32,580 nt of DNA from positions 1 to 32,580 of the forward strand of contig DYSN01000036.1 of assembly GCA_020718205.1 (NCBI GenBank). The letters run 5' to 3'. The DNA is from Draconibacterium orientale. GTDB taxonomy: Bacteria; Bacteroidota; Bacteroidia; Bacteroidales; UBA12170. Every line of letters begins with the position of its first letter. Positions within the stretch are counted from its first letter, which is position 1. Of the stretch, positions 2,629 through 13,570 are shown in pieces. The notes beneath the pieces were generated by a model. It was not told the origin of the DNA and searched no databases. It saw only the letters and a list, made by a program, of their open reading frames with translations. The translations under genes were made by a program, and so were the position numbers.

Positions 2629-5600
2629 ATGGAAAACGATCAACTACTGATTAAAAAGCTGGACCGGTTTATAAAAAAATTCTACCGGAACAAACTTATT
2701 AAAGGAATACTTTTTTCGATTGCATCACTGGGGGGGATATACCTGGTACTCATTTTTATTGAGTATTTATTTCATTTTAATCAGATCGTCAGGGCCGCCT
2801 TTCTTATTGCATATATCTCTACAACCTTATTCTTTTTGGTACGATTTATAATGATACCGGTTTTTCAATTATTAAGATATGGTAAAATTATAAGTTATGA
2901 TCAGGCTGCTGCAATTATCGGCGAACACTTTGTGGAGATAGAAGATAAATTATTGAATACGCTTCAGTTGATTAGGGCCAATAAAAGAAGTGAGGAAAAA
3001 TCGCAACTGCTGGTAGCCAGTATAGATCAAAAAATTGAAAGGTTAAAAGTAATCCAATTTTCAAGTGCAATTAATCTGCGTAAAAATCTAAAGTATTTGA
3101 AATATGTGGGGATTCCTATCATTTTATTAATGATGCTTGCACTGATCTCACCAAAACTAATTTCTGAACCAACAAGAAGGATTGTCCGATTTAATACAAA
3201 TTTTGTTGAACCACCAAAATTCCGGTTTGAAATTTTAAACAAGGAACTAACCGTATTACAACAAGATGATTATTTATTAAAAATTAAAGTAAAAGGCGAA
3301 GAGCTTCCCGGTGAGGTTTACCTGATGAGCGGCGGCATGAATTATAAAATGATAAAGGAAAAGGCAAATTTGCATTCCTATACCTTTAAATCATTGCAAA
3401 CTGATATTGTTTTTCAACTTAAAGGAGGAAATATTTTATCCGAGGAGTACAAGATCAGGGTATATCCAAAACCCATCATTCTGAATTTTGATCTTACGGT
3501 GGATTATCCAAAGTATGTTAACAAACCAACTGAAACATTCGAAAATATAGGAGATGTTTCTGTCCCGGAAGGGTCTGGTATTAGATGGACCTTTTATACG
3601 AAGGATGTCAAAGAGATACGTGTTACCTTTTTGAATGAAACCACGTCTCTTAAAAAGTCAGAGGGAAATAAGTTTTCTCTTGACCGACGTTTTCTATCGT
3701 CGGATTCATACAACATTGTACCAATAAATAATTATTCAACCAATTCGGATTCATTATTTTACAAAATATCGGTAATCAAAGATGGTTACCCGTCTATCGT
3801 CGTTAATCAGGAATCCGATTCGGCTCTTCGATACATGGTTTTTTTCCAGGGTGTCATTAAAGATGATTACGGTTTTACTAAATTACTGTTCAGCTATAAA
3901 ACGCGTTATGAAACCGATACAGCCATTATCCGGCAGCAACAGGTTAACATTCCCGTTATGGCCATGCTTAACAACCAGAATTTCTATTATACCATGGATT
4001 TATCAACCTTGAGTTTTGGGAAAGGAGAACAAATATCCTATTATTTTGAAGTTTGGGATAACGATGGAGTTAATGGACCGAAATCGACGCGAACGGAAAT
4101 TCAAATGATATCGCCGCCAACCTTGGAGGAAATAGAAGCGCTAACTGAAAAAACGGAAGAAAAAATTGAAAAGTCTTTTAAAAAGGGATTAAAGAAATCT
4201 GAAGAATTAAAGAAAGAGGTGGAAGATTTAAGCAGGAAAATGGTTGAAAAGAGTACCCTGACCTGGCAAGAAAAAAGGAAAATGGAGGAGATCTTGAGAT
4301 CACAGGAATCGATACTTAAGAATATTGAAAATATAAAAAAGGAGAATCTAAATAATATTGAAAATGAGAATAAATATCTGAATACAAGTGAAAGGATCCT
4401 TGAAAAGCAACTCGAATTGAATAGATTAATGGATCAACTCCTTACGGATGAGATGAAGAAAATCATGGAGGAGATGAAAAAGCTGTTGAATGAACTGGAT
4501 AAGAATAAGCTTAGTGAACTTATCGAGAAGATGAAGCTTACAAATACTGATATTGAAGAGCAGCTCGACAGGAACCTTGAATTATTTAAACAAATTGAAT
4601 TTGACAGAAAGGTTGAGAAATTGGTGAATAACCTGAGGGAAAACGCGGATGAACAGGAAAAGTTAGCTGAAAAGAGCAAGATTGAGAAAAACGCTGATGG
4701 CTTACTGGAAAAAGAACAAAAGAAAATCAGAAACAGATCTGATACGATTCAAAGTACGCTTAAAAAATTGGACGAAGAAAGTAAAAATGTTGAAAATAAG
4801 CCGGATATGGAAAAGGCTCTTGATATGCAAGACTCTATTGGAAAAAAGTTAGAGCAGATTGAACGCAATATGAAGGAAAAAAAATCAAAGGATAATGGAA
4901 AAGAGCAGAGGGAAGCTGCGGAGCAGATGAAGGAGCTGGCTATGGAGATAGAACAATCTATGCAGGAGGATGAAATGGAGCAGGCTGAAGAAGATGCAGA
5001 AATGATTCGGATGATTCTTGAAAATCTCATACGACTATCCTATGAGCAGGAGGAACTGATAAAGACAACGCAGGTAATTTCAAAAACTGATCCTAAATAC
5101 AATGGGGTTATTGATCAACAAAAAGGAATGAACGATAAATTAAAAGGAAGTGAAGATTCTCTCAATGAAATAGCAAAACGTCAAATAATGCTGCAACCGA
5201 TTATTTCAAGGGAAATTTCGGCGCTTAGAGGTAATATTGGTTTAGCGATAGAATCAATGAATAACAGAAATATTAAGACGGCTGTTGCTCAGCAACAATT
5301 AGCGATGACTGCTATAAACAATTTAGCATTGTTATTGAGCGAGTCGTTAGAAAAAATGAACCAGCAAATGGATATGAGTATGTCTGGCAAGGGAAAAAAG
5401 AACGCTTGTAAAAAGCCTGGAAAATCAGACGGAAAAGGGTCGATGAAAAATTTGAATAGCCTTCAGCAAAAGCTTGGAGAGCAATTGGACCAATTAAAGA
5501 ACGGAATGGAAAAGGCTAAGAAAGATGGGAAAGGGAACAAATTGAGTGAAACATCGATGAATAAGCAAATTGCAAAATTAGCTGCCCAGCAGGAGGCCAT

Positions 5601-5982
5601 ACGCAATGAGATGCAGAAATACAGGGATGATCTTCAGGAAAAAGGAGTTAATGAAAGCGGTTCACTTAAAGAGGCCATGAGAAATATGGAATTGAATGAA
5701 ACCGATTTGATAAATAAAAGAATTACCCAGGAGACAATAAAACGGCAACAAGATATTACAACCCGGATGCTTGAATCGGAAAAAGCGGAACAAATGAGGG
5801 AACGGGAAGAAAAGAGAGAATCAAATGAAGCAAAAAATGCAAGTTATGGTAACCCTTTTTCAGAATTTAAGTATAAGGAAAAAAGGAGGTCTGACCAGGA
5901 ACTGCTTCAATTGATATTCCCAGGGCTAAATCCTTTTTTTAAAAGTAAAGTAAACGATTACATGTTAAAACTTAATTGGTGA
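2629..5982 (+). CDS. DUF4175-like large membrane-anchored coiled-coil protein
   Basis: This 1117-residue protein of unknown function resembles the DUF4175 proteins of Bacteroidota. It has two close N-terminal membrane segments (about 22-48 and 53-77), a cytoplasmic-looking linker, and a third membrane segment (about 159-174). A beta-rich extracytoplasmic region follows to about residue 490. From about 500 to 1090 it is a very long Lys/Glu/Gln/Met-rich coiled coil (for example repeated EEMKKLL and EQMKELA patterns), ending in a short hydrophobic tail. The architecture suggests a scaffold or tether reaching from the inner membrane into the periplasm; that is inference. It heads a tight rightward gene run, 1 base before the next ORF. 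Antisense Ser-rich ORFs here are shadows of the Lys/Glu codons. Confidence 0.75.
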   Translation: MENDQLLIKKLDRFIKKFYRNKLIKGILFSIASLGGIYLVLIFIEYLFHFNQIVRAAFLIAYISTTLFFLVRFIMIPVFQLLRYGKIISYDQAAAIIGEHFVEIEDKLLNTLQLIRANKRSEEKSQLLVASIDQKIERLKVIQFSSAINLRKNLKYLKYVGIPIILLMMLALISPKLISEPTRRIVRFNTNFVEPPKFRFEILNKELTVLQQDDYLLKIKVKGEELPGEVYLMSGGMNYKMIKEKANLHSYTFKSLQTDIVFQLKGGNILSEEYKIRVYPKPIILNFDLTVDYPKYVNKPTETFENIGDVSVPEGSGIRWTFYTKDVKEIRVTFLNETTSLKKSEGNKFSLDRRFLSSDSYNIVPINNYSTNSDSLFYKISVIKDGYPSIVVNQESDSALRYMVFFQGVIKDDYGFTKLLFSYKTRYETDTAIIRQQQVNIPVMAMLNNQNFYYTMDLSTLSFGKGEQISYYFEVWDNDGVNGPKSTRTEIQMISPPTLEEIEALTEKTEEKIEKSFKKGLKKSEELKKEVEDLSRKMVEKSTLTWQEKRKMEEILRSQESILKNIENIKKENLNNIENENKYLNTSERILEKQLELNRLMDQLLTDEMKKIMEEMKKLLNELDKNKLSELIEKMKLTNTDIEEQLDRNLELFKQIEFDRKVEKLVNNLRENADEQEKLAEKSKIEKNADGLLEKEQKKIRNRSDTIQSTLKKLDEESKNVENKPDMEKALDMQDSIGKKLEQIERNMKEKKSKDNGKEQREAAEQMKELAMEIEQSMQEDEMEQAEEDAEMIRMILENLIRLSYEQEELIKTTQVISKTDPKYNGVIDQQKGMNDKLKGSEDSLNEIAKRQIMLQPIISREISALRGNIGLAIESMNNRNIKTAVAQQQLAMTAINNLALLLSESLEKMNQQMDMSMSGKGKKNACKKPGKSDGKGSMKNLNSLQQKLGEQLDQLKNGMEKAKKDGKGNKLSETSMNKQIAKLAAQQEAIRNEMQKYRDDLQEKGVNESGSLKEAMRNMELNETDLINKRITQETIKRQQDITTRMLESEKAEQMREREEKRESNEAKNASYGNPFSEFKYKEKRRSDQELLQLIFPGLNPFFKSKVNDYMLKLNW

Positions 5983-5983
5983 T

Positions 5984-6469
5984 ATGAAAAACGTATACAG
6001 GGAATTAGTCGTTGAAAACGAAAAACAAATTCCGAAAATTGAACGGTTTGTTGAAGAGATTTGTGACTATTTTAATATTAACAATGAGTATTTTGGTAAT
6101 ATTTTATTGGCTGTGACTGAGGCCACAGAAATACTTTTTGCATTGGAGGAAAGGAAGGAAAATCGAAATATTTTGATTGCATTTGATCACAACAGGACGG
6201 GACTCATCTTTAAAATAAAAGTGAAAAATGGGGTTGAAAGGACAGGGATCAGCGAGGATGAATTAGACAAAGCTATCAGAAATCATAAGTTATCGAAGGA
6301 AATCTTTATAATTAAAGCACTGGCCGATGAGGTGACCATTTCCTTGAATGGATGGAGTATTCTGTTGGTATTCTATGTGACCAGTATTAATTATGAAAAA
6401 TCACTGCAGAGAATAGAAAAATTAAAGGAATATTGGGGAAAGAAGGTACATATATCTCAAAAGAAATAA
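5984..6469 (+). CDS. Degenerate GHKL/RsbW-like ATPase-fold protein
   Basis: At 161 residues this is the size of the RsbW-like anti-sigma/serine kinase ATPase domains that sit just before ybeY in many Bacteroidota. The fold can be followed along its length: an N-terminal helix with VENEKQIPKIERFVEE, then GNILLAVTEA (residues 39-48), and a C-terminal IKALADEV (110-117). The ATP-binding motifs are not there. The N-box region after TEA reads TEILFALEE instead of a vNNAi-type motif. The position of the DxGxG box reads KNGVERTG (81-88). The GRG lid position reads KLSKE (102-106). It is therefore probably not an ATPase and may act by protein binding only. It lies 1 base after the DUF4175-like gene, and its stop overlaps the ybeY start (TAATG). 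Confidence 0.65.
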   Translation: MKNVYRELVVENEKQIPKIERFVEEICDYFNINNEYFGNILLAVTEATEILFALEERKENRNILIAFDHNRTGLIFKIKVKNGVERTGISEDELDKAIRNHKLSKEIFIIKALADEVTISLNGWSILLVFYVTSINYEKSLQRIEKLKEYWGKKVHISQKK

Positions 6470-6900
6470 TGGAAAAAAAAATTCAATTTTTTACCGAAGG
6501 AGTCAAGTTCATAATCCGGGAAAAATCAAAAATCCGATCCTGGGTTAAACAAACTATTGAATGTGAGGGATATGAACAGGGAAATTTGAATATTGTTTTG
6601 TGTAATGATCAATATTTACAGGGATTAAATCGTAAGTATCTAAAAAGCAAACTGTTAACTGACATTCTTGCCTTTAATTTTAGCGAAAATAAGCGGGATA
6701 TAGATGGAGATATATATATTAGTGTGGATCGGGTTAAAGAAAACGCACTGCTTTTTAAACAAACAATGAAGGAGGAATTAAACAGGGTTATAATCCATGG
6801 TGTATTGCATTTAATGGGATATAATGATCACAAGGAGGAAGAGGTTGTAATAATGAGAAAAAAAGAGGATTTCTACCTTGCTGAAATTCGAAAAAAATAG
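6469..6900 (+). CDS. ybeY: Endoribonuclease YbeY (rRNA maturation factor)
   Basis: YbeY is a metal-dependent endoribonuclease needed for 16S rRNA 3'-end maturation and ribosome quality control. The protein of 143 residues carries the family zinc motif as HGVLHLMGYNDH, with H110 and H114 as ligands and D120/H121 at the third ligand position. The GYxD arrangement with one extra residue is the usual Bacteroidota form. A start at 6433 is open in frame, but 6469 is preferred because it gives the normal family length and forms a TAATG junction with the upstream stop, which suggests translational coupling. The next gene is mnmG, 48 bases downstream, so two RNA-maturation genes lie together. Confidence 0.9.
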   Translation: MEKKIQFFTEGVKFIIREKSKIRSWVKQTIECEGYEQGNLNIVLCNDQYLQGLNRKYLKSKLLTDILAFNFSENKRDIDGDIYISVDRVKENALLFKQTMKEELNRVIIHGVLHLMGYNDHKEEEVVIMRKKEDFYLAEIRKK

Positions 6901-6948: not shown

Positions 6949-8817
6949 ATGAAGGAATACGATGTTATCGTTGTCGGGGCAGGGCATGCCGGATGTGAAG
7001 CAGCAGCTGCTGCGGGAAATCTGGGTTCAAGAGTTTTATTGATCACCATGAATATGATGAACATGGCTCAGATGTCATGCAATCCGTCCATGGGGGGTAT
7101 CGCAAAAGGGCAAATTATTCGTGAAATAGATGCAATGGGGGGATATTCCGGAATTGTTACGGATAGAACCATGATACAGTTCAGAATGCTGAACCGTTCA
7201 AAAGGACCTGCGATGTGGAGCCCTAGGGCTCAAAACGACAGGGTTCTTTATTCAATGGAATGGAGAGCAATGCTTGAAGGTACAAAAAATGTCGATTTTT
7301 GGCAGGATACAGTAAATGGGCTTGTTGTTGAAAACAGAATAGTAAGGGGAGTAAGAACCGGATTGGGAAATGTTTTCACCTGCAAAAGTGTGATATTGGC
7401 GAATGGTACGTTTTTAAACGGAATTATACATATCGGAGAAAAAAGTTTTTCTGGAGGAAGGATAGGAGAGCGATCTGAAGACGAATTAACAAGCAACCTA
7501 ATCAAAAATGGTTTTATTGTCAAACGCATGAAGACAGGAACGCCTGTAAGGGTGGACGGACGGACATTGGATTTTAGTAAAATGGAAGAACAAAAGGGAG
7601 ACGAGAACCCTCAAAAATTTTCATTTACCAAGACGCCTGAATTGAGTAAGCAAAAAAGTTGTTACCTTACTTACACCAATACAACAGCGCATGATGTTCT
7701 CAGGACAGGATTTGGTAAATCACCCATGTATATGGGAAGGATTCAGGGCAGGGGACCCCGTTATTGCCCTTCGGTGGAAGATAAGATTGACCGGTTTTAT
7801 ACCAAGGAAAGACATCCATTATTTATTGAACCTGAAGGCTTGGATACAGTAGAGTATTATGTAAACGGATTTTCATCTTCATTGCCCCAAGAGGTGCAAT
7901 TTGATGCATTAAAAAAGGTATCGGGATTTGAAAATGCCAAATTTTTTAGGCCAGGATACGCCATTGAGTATGATTATTTTCCCCCGTTTCAATTAAAAAT
8001 TTCATTAGAGACCAAAGTCGTTGAAAATCTCTTTTTTGCAGGGCAAATCAATGGTACTACGGGATATGAAGAAGCCGCCGCACAGGGAATAATGGCTGGT
8101 ATTAATGCACACTTGAAAATTAATAATAAAAATGCATTTGTCCTGAACCGGTCAGAGGGATATATTGGAGTATTAATTGATGACCTTGTTACGAAAGGAA
8201 CAGAAGAACCATACAGAATGTTTACCTCGCGGGCCGAATACAGGATCCTGTTGCGTCAGGATAATGCCGATTTACGCATTACGCCCAAATCATTTGCCTT
8301 GGGGTTAGCCTCAAAGTCAAGGAATGATATTGTTGTTGAAAAATATCGCAAAGTTGATAATCTCATTCACTATTTGAAAACAGAAAATGTCTATCCTGAA
8401 GAAATCAATGAGATGCTTGAGAAATTGGGAACAAGTACGATTCAACAAAAGCAAAAGGTATCTACCCTATTACTGAGGCCTCAAATTTCATTGAAAGCGT
8501 TAATGAAGGGGGCCATAAAAATCCAGGATTATGTATCATCTTATGGGGGGGTGAATGAAGAAATATTGGATGAGGCAGAAATTCAGATAAAGTATGAAAA
8601 TTATATAGAAAAGGAACAAGAGGTTGCCGATAAGATGGTCTCTTTGGAAGGTATTCCACTGAGAGAAGATTTTGATTATATGAAAATCGGGGCTTTATCA
8701 TTTGAAGCCCGGGAAAAACTTATAAAAATAAAACCGCGGACTTTGGGGCAGGCAGGCAGGATCAGCGGTGTTTCGCCTGCGGATATCTCTGTTCTTATTG
8801 TTCACATAGGTCGATAA
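6949..8817 (+). CDS. mnmG: tRNA uridine-5-carboxymethylaminomethyl(34) synthesis enzyme MnmG (GidA)
   Basis: MnmG is an FAD enzyme that, with the GTPase MnmE, installs carboxymethylaminomethyl groups on the wobble uridine of several tRNAs. At 622 residues it is full length. The N-terminal dinucleotide fold reads VVGAGHAGCEAA (residues 7-18), followed by the family signature region MSCNPSMGGIAKG. The FAD-site TGTTGYEEAAAQG is in the centre, and the helical C-terminal domain ends GRISGVSPADI. The start is fixed by the conserved N-terminus. A parS-type site lies 12 bases upstream and another begins 1 base past its stop. The stop codon shares a base with the ATG of the next ORF (TAATG). Confidence 0.97.
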   Translation: MKEYDVIVVGAGHAGCEAAAAAGNLGSRVLLITMNMMNMAQMSCNPSMGGIAKGQIIREIDAMGGYSGIVTDRTMIQFRMLNRSKGPAMWSPRAQNDRVLYSMEWRAMLEGTKNVDFWQDTVNGLVVENRIVRGVRTGLGNVFTCKSVILANGTFLNGIIHIGEKSFSGGRIGERSEDELTSNLIKNGFIVKRMKTGTPVRVDGRTLDFSKMEEQKGDENPQKFSFTKTPELSKQKSCYLTYTNTTAHDVLRTGFGKSPMYMGRIQGRGPRYCPSVEDKIDRFYTKERHPLFIEPEGLDTVEYYVNGFSSSLPQEVQFDALKKVSGFENAKFFRPGYAIEYDYFPPFQLKISLETKVVENLFFAGQINGTTGYEEAAAQGIMAGINAHLKINNKNAFVLNRSEGYIGVLIDDLVTKGTEEPYRMFTSRAEYRILLRQDNADLRITPKSFALGLASKSRNDIVVEKYRKVDNLIHYLKTENVYPEEINEMLEKLGTSTIQQKQKVSTLLLRPQISLKALMKGAIKIQDYVSSYGGVNEEILDEAEIQIKYENYIEKEQEVADKMVSLEGIPLREDFDYMKIGALSFEAREKLIKIKPRTLGQAGRISGVSPADISVLIVHIGR

Positions 8818-9838: not shown

Positions 9839-12800
9839 ATGAATAAGATAAAGGGGTTAACTGACAAGTTTATAAAAAACAGCCATTATTTCAACCTGCT
9901 GTTATCCATAGTTTTTTTTGGATCCATATTTTTTGTCAGTCATTGTACCAACCATAAATCGGATCCCGGGTATTTGGCAAACAGAATTCAGGAAAGAATT
10001 ACAGATGCAGAGGTAGATTTAAAAAGAGCAGTCAGGGATTTTTACGATGGGTTTGATACCCTGAAGAACTATCCGTCGTTTCCTTCAGATCTCTTATTTG
10101 CTTCCGATCTTGAAAAGGGAGATTTTTTCTTTTTGGTTTTTAAAAACAACCAACTGGTTTTTTGGAGTAATAATAAAGTTCCTGTTGGTGAAGATCTGCC
10201 CCGGAACCATAAGCAGAATTTTTTTATCTCCAGGTTGCAAAACGGATGGTACGCGTTTCAACAGCATCAAGAAGGATCCTATTGTTTTTTTGGAGGGTTA
10301 CTTATCCGGACGGAATATCCGCTGCAAAACAATTTCATAAAAAATGAATTTTCTACCCGGTTTAATATTCCGGATTTTATCCGGATTGAGAAGGGAAATG
10401 GCGGTTATCCGGTTTATAGTGCAGATGGCAGCTATTTGTTTTCAGTGACTACAGATACAGGTAACAAACAGGAACCAACCGGTTCAACATTTATTTTACT
10501 TCTTTTTCTTTTTGGGGCAGGATTTTTATTTCTCTTTGTTTATCAGTTGTTCCTCGGTTTTCTATGGTTGAAAAACAGGCGGGGTCTATTGCTGATCCTT
10601 TTTTCACTCACAATTCTTTGTTTGCGGGCCGCTCAGTTTTATTTTCGAGTCCCGCATCCATTATATGAATCAGGGATATTTAGCCCGGCATGGTATGCTT
10701 CATCTGCAATCATGAATTCGTTGGGAGATTTTGTTATCAATGCATTTCAATTTTTGTTTTTGACATTCCTGTTGTTCAAAAACAGGGAAATCATTAAAAA
10801 TGAAATGAAACATGGTCCGGTAATAACGTTGGTATCTGTGTTTTTTAGTGTTCTTCTTTTGGTATTCTCATTTCATACGCTTACTCATTTTGTGCAAGAT
10901 GTGATTCTAAATTCCCGTCTTCCAATGAATTTACAGGATATTGCTGCTTTAACCACATTTAGTGGGTATGGATTTTTTATTATTTGTTGTCTCTTTTTTG
11001 GTTTTTGGTTTTTATCCAATACCTTGATAATCCTAATACTTCCAGTTTCGGGTTTAAATTACAAAATCATTTTTTCAGGGGTCATTGCATTTATAGTTTA
11101 TGGAATTATTTGTCATATATCAGGAATTCAATGGCAGCCACTGACCATTCTGTTTTTAATCCTCTATATCATTATTTTATCTTATCGGTTACTGAAACAT
11201 TCAACATCCCTTAATTTTCAAACTGTTTTATTCTTCCTGTGTTTTTTTTCAGTCTATGCTACGGTCATAATAAATCAGTCCACCACAAAAAAAGAAAAAG
11301 AGAAACGCAAATTGATAGCGGTGGCTTTGGCTGCCCGTAAAAATCCAGTAACAATGGCATTGTATGAACAGATGGAACGAAAAATGGCTACAGATTCTGT
11401 TATTGTCGATGCCCTTCAGAAGTTGCGTGAAAACCAAGAAACAGACCCGGACAGTGTTGCAAAATACATCACAGGAAAATACTTTACCGATTTTTGGACC
11501 CGGTTTAATGTTCAGGTAACCTGTTGTAATACAGATAAAACATTACAGGTTCAGCCACAGGGATATCTGATCAATTGTAGTGAATATTTTCAGGATTTAA
11601 TCAATACAAACGGAGAGACCACCACGGTAAAAGAGTTCTATTTTCTGGATTATGGTTATGGGAACGAGAATTACTTAATTGTATTGACAGATGCAGGAGT
11701 ACGATCTCCGGGTGAGAAAAGGTCGTGTATATATCTTGAATTAAGTTTGAAGACCACTTATAAGGATCTCGGGTATCCTGAATTATTATTGGACAAATCT
11801 TATTTTAGCCCCTCTGATTTTTCAGAATATGCCCACGGACTATTTCGATACGACCGGCTTGTTCACGGCGTCGGGCCTTATAATTACAGAACCGATTTAA
11901 AACAATATTTTGTTTCAGCACAATCATGGCCGTTTTTTGCTTTCGACGGAATGGACCACTATTACTATCGCGTTAACAACAGTACCACCATACTGGTTAG
12001 TAAAAGCAAACCGACGCTTTTCAACCGGATTACCCCTTTCTCGTATTTGTTTATTCTTTTCTCAGGATTCGCATTTATCCTTTTTCTTGTTGGAAATTTT
12101 CGCCGGACAAACAAGTTTACCCCAAAAAGCATACGCGACCGGCTTCAACTGGCCATTACCGGTATTCTTGTATTAACTTTTATTATTATCGGTATCGTTT
12201 TGATTTTAAATATTACGAAAATCAATACCAATAAGAATGACAATATTCTTCAGGAAAAGGCATTTTCTGTTCTTACGGAAGTGCAACATCGATATTCCGG
12301 AATTACAGAATGGCAAATGCAGTCGAAAAGCACACTGAATGATTTTCTGGTTAAATTATCCAATGTCTTCTTCACGGATATTAACTTTTATGATGGTACA
12401 GGATTTTTAATTGCAACCAGCCGTCCGCAAATTTTTGAAGAAGGATTGCTTTCCCAGAACATTAACCCTTCTGCTTACCGGAAACTCCTGAAAGAAAAGC
12501 AGTCTATTTATATTCATGATGAATATATTGGCCGCCTTCACTATAGTTCTGCATATATTCCGGTTTATAACAATGACAATCAATTACTTGGATTTCTAAA
12601 CCTTCCTTATTTTTCGCGACAGGATGAACTGACAAAAGAAATATCTACAGTACTGGTGACTTTTACGAACATTTATATTTTGCTTATTCTATTTGGACTT
12701 TTTATAACACTACTGATCTCTAATTATATAATATCCCCTTTAACCTTACTTTCCAACACCATGGCCAGGTTACGGATTGGGAGGATCAATGAAAAAATTT

Positions 12801-13570
12801 CCTGGAAACATACCGATGAGATTGGTCAACTTGTGAATGAATATAACAGAATGGTTGATGCTTTAAGTCAGAGCGCAGAGCTGCTTGCACGATCGGAACG
12901 CGAAAATGCCTGGCGTGAAATGGCAAGGCAGGTGGCCCATGAGATAAAAAATCCGTTGACTCCCATGAAGTTGAGTGTTCAGTATCTTCAAAAAGCCTGG
13001 AATGAAAATGCACCGGATTGGGATCAGCGGCTGAAACGATTTACAAAAACACTTACAGAGCAAATTGATACGCTTTCTGCGATTGCTTCGGGTTTTTCGG
13101 ATTTTGCACAAATGCCACCCGAAAAGAGGGAAAACCTGAACCTTGAAACGTTATTGCCATTTGTTGTTTCACTTTATAATGATGGTTCGCCAATTCAGTT
13201 TACGCTGTCGTTAAATGCTGCAAACCCCTTTGTGTATGGGGATAGGAAACAGATGGTCCGGGTTTTTACCAATCTTATTAACAATGCAATTCAATCCATT
13301 GAAAACCCCGCCCGGGGAGTGATAAATTTTGAACTTGAAAATGAAGGGGACGATCTCATTTTCCGCCTGTCTGATAATGGATCGGGAATTCCCGAATCGA
13401 AGCATCCGTTTATTTTTCAGCCAAATTTTACAACAAAATCTGGTGGAATGGGTTTAGGCCTTGCGATTGTAAAAGGGATTGTGGAAAAAATGGGGGGGGC
13501 CATTTCATTTCATTCAGATACACACATTGGAACAACGATTATTATAAAATTTCCCCGCAATGATCAGTAG
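9839..13570 (+). CDS. Large multi-transmembrane sensor histidine kinase with NtrY-like core
   Basis: This is an orphan two-component sensor of 1243 residues. It has a first membrane segment (about 18-36), an extracytoplasmic domain, then a block of about eight membrane segments (218-480) and a second soluble region to about 725. Two more membrane segments follow (about 728-748 and 766-790), then a third sensory domain, a last segment (about 942-968) and a HAMP region. The kinase core has the phospho-acceptor in AHEIKNPLTP (H1034), N-box NLINNAIQSI, G1 DNGSGIP and G2 GGMGLGLAIV, so it is complete and probably active. The HEIKNPLTP form is that of NtrY-type kinases. No response regulator is adjacent. 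A run of eight G lies at 13492-13499 near the end. The 3' end overlaps the next gene by 11 bases. Confidence 0.88.
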   Translation: MNKIKGLTDKFIKNSHYFNLLLSIVFFGSIFFVSHCTNHKSDPGYLANRIQERITDAEVDLKRAVRDFYDGFDTLKNYPSFPSDLLFASDLEKGDFFFLVFKNNQLVFWSNNKVPVGEDLPRNHKQNFFISRLQNGWYAFQQHQEGSYCFFGGLLIRTEYPLQNNFIKNEFSTRFNIPDFIRIEKGNGGYPVYSADGSYLFSVTTDTGNKQEPTGSTFILLLFLFGAGFLFLFVYQLFLGFLWLKNRRGLLLILFSLTILCLRAAQFYFRVPHPLYESGIFSPAWYASSAIMNSLGDFVINAFQFLFLTFLLFKNREIIKNEMKHGPVITLVSVFFSVLLLVFSFHTLTHFVQDVILNSRLPMNLQDIAALTTFSGYGFFIICCLFFGFWFLSNTLIILILPVSGLNYKIIFSGVIAFIVYGIICHISGIQWQPLTILFLILYIIILSYRLLKHSTSLNFQTVLFFLCFFSVYATVIINQSTTKKEKEKRKLIAVALAARKNPVTMALYEQMERKMATDSVIVDALQKLRENQETDPDSVAKYITGKYFTDFWTRFNVQVTCCNTDKTLQVQPQGYLINCSEYFQDLINTNGETTTVKEFYFLDYGYGNENYLIVLTDAGVRSPGEKRSCIYLELSLKTTYKDLGYPELLLDKSYFSPSDFSEYAHGLFRYDRLVHGVGPYNYRTDLKQYFVSAQSWPFFAFDGMDHYYYRVNNSTTILVSKSKPTLFNRITPFSYLFILFSGFAFILFLVGNFRRTNKFTPKSIRDRLQLAITGILVLTFIIIGIVLILNITKINTNKNDNILQEKAFSVLTEVQHRYSGITEWQMQSKSTLNDFLVKLSNVFFTDINFYDGTGFLIATSRPQIFEEGLLSQNINPSAYRKLLKEKQSIYIHDEYIGRLHYSSAYIPVYNNDNQLLGFLNLPYFSRQDELTKEISTVLVTFTNIYILLILFGLFITLLISNYIISPLTLLSNTMARLRIGRINEKISWKHTDEIGQLVNEYNRMVDALSQSAELLARSERENAWREMARQVAHEIKNPLTPMKLSVQYLQKAWNENAPDWDQRLKRFTKTLTEQIDTLSAIASGFSDFAQMPPEKRENLNLETLLPFVVSLYNDGSPIQFTLSLNAANPFVYGDRKQMVRVFTNLINNAIQSIENPARGVINFELENEGDDLIFRLSDNGSGIPESKHPFIFQPNFTTKSGGMGLGLAIVKGIVEKMGGAISFHSDTHIGTTIIIKFPRNDQ

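Follow-up and report, generated by a model that had tools for sequence, protein, structure and literature searches.

The window analysed here is a stretch of 32,580 nucleotides, in which a gene for an RsbW-like protein is located between the genes for a DUF4175 protein and for YbeY (Table 1). The original prediction had described this reading frame as intact and separated from each neighbour by one base. The frame was found to be open along its whole length, coding for 161 amino acids. The spacing stood on the upstream side, where a single spare base follows the DUF4175 stop codon (5980-5982), and failed on the downstream side, where the RsbW-like stop codon and the ybeY start codon share the base at position 6469 (TAATG). 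Further along the window, an open reading frame of 1243 amino acids (9839-13570) resembles, by eye and from its translation, a multi-transmembrane sensor histidine kinase.

Table 1. Genes of the RsbW-ybeY-mnmG locus in the window and segments of the RsbW-like protein.
Feature	Positions	Strand	Observation or basis
DUF4175 membrane coiled-coil protein	2629..5982	+	Pfam PF13779, 9.8e-20; usual upstream neighbour
RsbW-like gene (putative pseudo-ATPase)	5984..6469	+	ATG start, 161 codons and stop; open reading frame and translation, predicted fold, syntenic orthologues
Residues 18-47, helices ahead of the former N-box (NNEYFGNILLA.TEA)	6035..6124	+	Column entropy of 0.40 bits in 23 degenerate copies, lower than in any other region compared
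Codon 50	6131..6133	+	Ile, Leu, Val or Met in 29/29 degenerate copies, Asn in 8/8 intact sisters
Residues 80-86, former DxGxG box	6221..6241	+	Variable, low-confidence loop; pLDDT below 50 at residues 86-88
Residues 97-106, former ATP lid (consensus EIRKHKLSR[DE])	6272..6301	+	Re-conserved; within helix 93-106 of the model
Residues 107-116, retained IFIIKALADE segment	6302..6331	+	Alignment
Residues 133-157, C-terminal helical extension (SSxNYEKSLxRIxxLKEYW)	6380..6454	+	Helix 134-160 in the model
ybeY	6469..6900	+	Pfam PF02130, 5.6e-29
mnmG (gidA)	6949..8817	+	Pfam PF01134, 3.8e-155; next in the conserved gene order

Searches of NCBIfam and of the PDB sequences with the window protein gave no relevant match. 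Its score with the Pfam profile HATPase_c_2 (PF13581) was 17.1 bits, below the gathering cut-off of 27.4, compared with 78.9 bits for the intact protein of a sister genus (L086). Weak matches to DUF2854 (Pfam), sepiapterin reductase (NCBIfam) and a sliding clamp (PDB sequences) are unrelated and were ruled out by synteny, profile and fold. Syntenic orthologues were matched in 36 of the 60 relatives' genomes searched, the window's own genome being counted among them; they can be aligned along the length of the window protein and most of them carry intact motifs. When the profile of the degenerate proteins was compared with that of the intact ones by hhalign, the match reached 99.94% (E-value 7e-37) over 161 columns with 28% identity. 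An AlphaFold2 model of the window protein, built with 29 sequences, is of moderate confidence (mean pLDDT 78.8, pTM 0.74). The comparison of a predicted structure with RsbW and SpoIIAB, proposed along with the original prediction, was carried out on this model, and the best PDB matches were RsbW, UsfX and SpoIIAB with both Foldseek and VIA-align. The VIA-align Z scores with structures of this type range from 12.2 to 14.9, with 14.9 for RsbW (6m37_C; rmsd 1.8 over 112 aligned residues), 13.2 for UsfX (8ih8_D) and 13.1 for SpoIIAB (1th8_A). Profile and fold confirm that the window protein is a true RsbW/SpoIIAB homologue with a predicted Bergerat-type alpha/beta fold; its identification as RsbW-like was correct, and the opposite outcome, a protein unrelated to the GHKL family, did not occur.

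The alignment with the intact syntenic orthologues revealed that the N-box asparagine is replaced by Ile50, that VKNGVER occupies the position of the DxGxG box, the aspartate and both glycines being absent, and that the GxG of the lid has become Ser104-Lys105-Glu106. Glu46, the YFGNILLA helix and IKALADEV are kept. The three losses are located where the original prediction had placed them, the two segments that it described as preserved (GNILLAVTEA and IKALADEV) are retained, and no intact nucleotide pocket was found at the level of the motifs. The search in the family f100 covered 43 genomes, of which 37 gave a match. The asparagine, the DxGxG box and the GxG are all absent in register from 29/29 proteins, coming from the genera g196 (7), g207 (15) and g210 (6) and from the window, whereas all motifs are present in 8/8 copies from the sister genera g151, g208, g209 and g211. 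A ninth sister copy (G427), left uncounted because of a run of N, has intact motifs by eye. The loss is not a chance event, since the same-group proteins lack the motifs in register and those of the sister genera possess them; a loss private to the window contig is ruled out by the same loss in the f100 relatives. At the former lid, charged residues are conserved in 29/29 degenerate copies, with arginine or lysine at position 105 and glutamate or aspartate at position 106. The degenerate type is represented by 28 named records, all of them metagenome-assembled genomes; the names of lakes (e.g. Pavin) appear in the titles of several. One record titled Alphaproteobacteria (L134, SACF01000001.1) bears a Bacteroidales degenerate locus and is likely a mislabelled assembly.

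The bin from which the window comes (G000) contains two RsbW-ybeY-mnmG loci, that of the window (contig C306) and a second one (L031, contig C120) in which the motifs are intact. The copy of C120 clusters with the genus g1, that of the window with the family f100, and the contamination of the bin is listed as 6.23%. The window contig is thus probably a contaminant of the bin. Judging from the identity of its RsbW-like protein with the 15 copies of g207 (47-64%, at least 57% for 12 of them), it most likely originates from an organism near this genus. The idea that the intact copy of C120 compensates for the window copy in the same cell was rejected as an artefact of binning, in view of these different groupings. 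A second RsbW-ybeY-mnmG locus, degenerate in a different manner, was also noticed in another bin (L127, G436:C114), where it is probably a contaminant contig as well.

The loss of three catalytic motifs in a gene whose start and stop codons touch or overlap those of its neighbours could be that of a decaying gene, kept open only by its position between two genes that are needed. This explanation is disfavoured and we consider it hardly credible, because the dN/dS ratios are far below 1 in the closest pairs (0.077 and 0.032), a full-length copy is found in 28 further genomes of f100 and new conserved segments have appeared. For the eight pairs with dS below 2, the median dN/dS was 0.22 and the maximum 0.36, most other pairs being near or past saturation. 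The mean divergence of the degenerate protein relative to that of YbeY was 0.71 in g207, 0.56 in g196 and 0.95 in g210, compared with 0.99, 0.94, 0.91 and 1.33 in four intact groups, so that it diverges less than YbeY in two of the three genera (g207 and g196). These ratios indicate that the altered protein is under purifying selection, in agreement with the original prediction of a pseudo-ATPase that is kept. For g210, in which the divergence of the protein is close to that of YbeY, relaxed constraint may apply instead of a new function.

The distribution of conservation has changed along the protein. Between 8 intact copies and 23 degenerate ones (g196, g207 and the window), the entropy rose from 0.67 to 1.58 bits at the former N-box and from 0.72 to 2.50 bits at the former G-box (residues 80-91), where variability exceeds that of every other region compared, and it fell from 1.80 to 0.60 bits in the core of the lid, these numbers being indicative given the unequal sizes of the groups. 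One could imagine a rebuilt, non-canonical pocket that has kept an affinity for a nucleotide or some other small ligand, since the model retains the fold and the charged residues conserved at the former lid could touch a ligand. In GHKL proteins, the Asn, Asp and Gly residues hold magnesium and the phosphates; all of them are gone here and the loop of the G-box is the most variable part, which makes such a pocket quite unlikely.

The state of the motifs was then surveyed in Bacteroidales. Among 206 mapped loci, 26 were dropped as having no ybeY within the distance limit (G427 is one of them, the run of N fusing its frames); the survey yielded 163 rows with the gene adjoining ybeY, or 162 without one duplicated row (G398x). 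All six key residues are kept in 100 of these copies and five in 7, whereas three are kept in 2 and two or fewer in 53. With degenerate defined as three or fewer of the six, 55/162 copies are degenerate and 107/162 intact, with hardly any intermediates; the survey was seeded from matches to the window protein and this share is therefore not an unbiased frequency. An alignment-free search for the three motif patterns found none in 51/55 degenerate copies and a single one in each of the other four, and the DxGxG pattern is absent from the whole sequence in 55/55. The degenerate copies belong to 12 families (f4, f14, f33, f40, f50, f52, f77, f80, f84, f100, f103 and f117), to which the window copy (placed with f100) and a single copy whose family is unknown are to be added; both states occur within f50 and f100.

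When YbeY was combined with the N-terminal part of MnmG, the resulting tree (144 rows, after exclusion of 19 rows with fewer than 100 MnmG residues) required 11 changes of state, of which 5 are forced by well-supported branches. A smaller quick tree with a better model gave 14 changes, at least 3 of them forced. These changes are read as losses because the regain of all motifs is implausible. A single ancient loss was rejected (p-AU 0.0031) with 37 rows, 19 degenerate and 18 intact, chosen after the larger tree had been seen; the grouping of the degenerate rows of f100 and f50 alone was not rejected (p-AU 0.085). The same loss of the ATP site thus seems to have occurred several times in Bacteroidales. 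The C-terminal helical extension is present in 55/55 degenerate and in 59/107 distinct intact copies, and the copies devoid of it, 48 distinct ones in 49 rows, are all intact. It is the mark of one clade, with one origin, which covers 66% of the tree length. For losses placed at random along the branches, the probability that all lie inside this clade is about 0.13 for five losses and about 0.02 for ten. The extension is a possible precondition for the loss of the ATP site, these values being suggestive only.

No STAS antagonist or sigma-factor gene was found at the window locus, the neighbours being DUF4175, ybeY and mnmG. In a search of 18 genomes for STAS and SpoIIE, most of the f100 genomes examined were found to encode, away from the ybeY locus, a SpoIIE phosphatase-HATPase as a separate protein with STAS as its neighbour. 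The degenerate protein could form a heterodimer with an intact RsbW-type protein present in its cell, tuning partner switching, as might Mycobacterium smegmatis RsbW3, a heterodimer being proposed for a kinase-negative RsbW in the consulted sections of PMC7693655. This is very unlikely, because neither STAS nor SpoIIE gave a match in the degenerate genome G413 (98% complete), where the best match to HATPase_c_2, in an open frame of 557 amino acids, has an E-value of 2.1e-7. STAS and SpoIIE matches are equally absent from the intact genomes G001 and G428 (96% complete each), and the absence of both from these three genomes indicates that partner switching is not needed.

The neighbouring genes were considered as a source of partners. 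YbeY, an rRNA maturation nuclease, is the constant neighbour, although adjacency to ybeY was a criterion of selection, so that this constancy is partly built in and is not enough on its own to identify YbeY as the partner. DUF4175 is found upstream of 51/55 degenerate and 77/107 intact copies, the other intact copies being preceded by an M23/EnvC-like protein (18), DUF4494 (6, all in f1) or something else (6). The gene before RsbW-ybeY varies in this way with the Bacteroidales lineage (DUF4175, M23/EnvC-like, DUF4494; L036:993-2192, L021:2034-3224, L014:2088-2684). The last 40 or so residues of the DUF4175 protein (5850-5982 in the window) form, in most lineages, a conserved tail of the type LLKTVPPxLKPFYKxKVNEYF, which is rewritten in the degenerate genera of f100. 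Binding to this upstream protein, with a role in the envelope and perhaps in division, would be compatible with its frequency before degenerate copies and with the altered tail; moreover, a DUF4175 protein, AdvA, is described as a division protein of Acinetobacter in the portion of PMC7481262 consulted. In the family f117, all of whose copies are degenerate (4/4), no DUF4175 was found upstream, and the degenerate copies of f33, f52 and f84 coexist with a tail of the ancestral type, so that we hold this partner to be unlikely. YbeY is put first, as a tentative choice.

Taken together, these results favour, with a probability of about 0.65, a nucleotide-independent adaptor, derived several times from the ybeY-linked RsbW-type ATPase of Bacteroidales. 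An ancestral RsbW/SpoIIAB-type ATPase linked to ybeY would have become a pseudo-ATPase, keeping the Bergerat-type fold without the residues that bind the nucleotide, and would now act as a binding module independent of nucleotide. We infer this binding role, and also that the former lid, frozen as a conserved helix, forms with the C-terminal extension an interface for a constant partner. This would most likely be YbeY, whose gene overlaps, or its complex, and in second place the DUF4175 envelope protein. In the intact lineages the binding of ATP would regulate the contact with the partner, and in the degenerate ones the contact would be constitutive. The original prediction of a pseudo-ATPase retained for binding can therefore be followed, from the sequences, for a homologue that lacks the normal nucleotide-site residues and is kept by selection, the binding itself being the conjectural part. 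A broader proposal, which we regard as rather doubtful, is that the earlier C-terminal helix took over binding and thereby enabled the repeated passage from ATPase to nucleotide-free adaptor, with the former lid as the contact surface; in that case the protein would serve, so far unrecognised, as a cofactor either of the rRNA maturation linked to YbeY or of a connection of ribosome maturation with the envelope.

RsbW-type proteins are usually treated as ATP-driven switches. Here a member of this type is found in a housekeeping locus (RsbW-ybeY-mnmG), apart from partner-switching genes, and its ATP site appears to have been dropped repeatedly while the gene was kept. This suggests that the lasting job of the ybeY-linked RsbW in Bacteroidales is binding and not catalysis, and the degenerate copies would be natural separation-of-function variants for finding this job and the partner. 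For roughly one in three of the copies examined, annotation as RsbW or HATPase would be misleading. A literature search on DUF4175, on RsbW or anti-sigma factors with ybeY in Bacteroidota and on pseudo-RsbW or GHKL proteins without ATP binding retrieved no paper on a ybeY-linked pseudo-RsbW.

With RsbW, SpoIIAB and UsfX, the window protein shares the fold, the helix before the N-box and the ALADEV segment. It differs from them by the loss of the N-box asparagine, of DxGxG and of the GxG lid and by the extra C-terminal helix, and its gene has no adjoining RsbV/STAS or sigma-factor gene; by its motifs, it is not an RsbW kinase. The locus is common to the intact ybeY-linked proteins of Bacteroidales, those of the sister genera also sharing the length class and the extension, but these proteins keep at least five of the six key residues. 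In the sections of PMC7693655 consulted, M. smegmatis RsbW1 and RsbW3 are reported as RsbW homologues without kinase activity on RsfB that act by protein contact, and the likeness lies in these two traits; they are part of the SigF partner-switching system. According to the parts of PMC11746154 consulted, several lineages have given up the GHKL part of the Top6B-like partners of Spo11 and kept the complex. There the whole GHKL domain is missing in some lineages, whereas the window protein keeps the predicted fold and has lost the ATP site alone, and it falls within the known kind of pseudo-enzymes of the GHKL fold.
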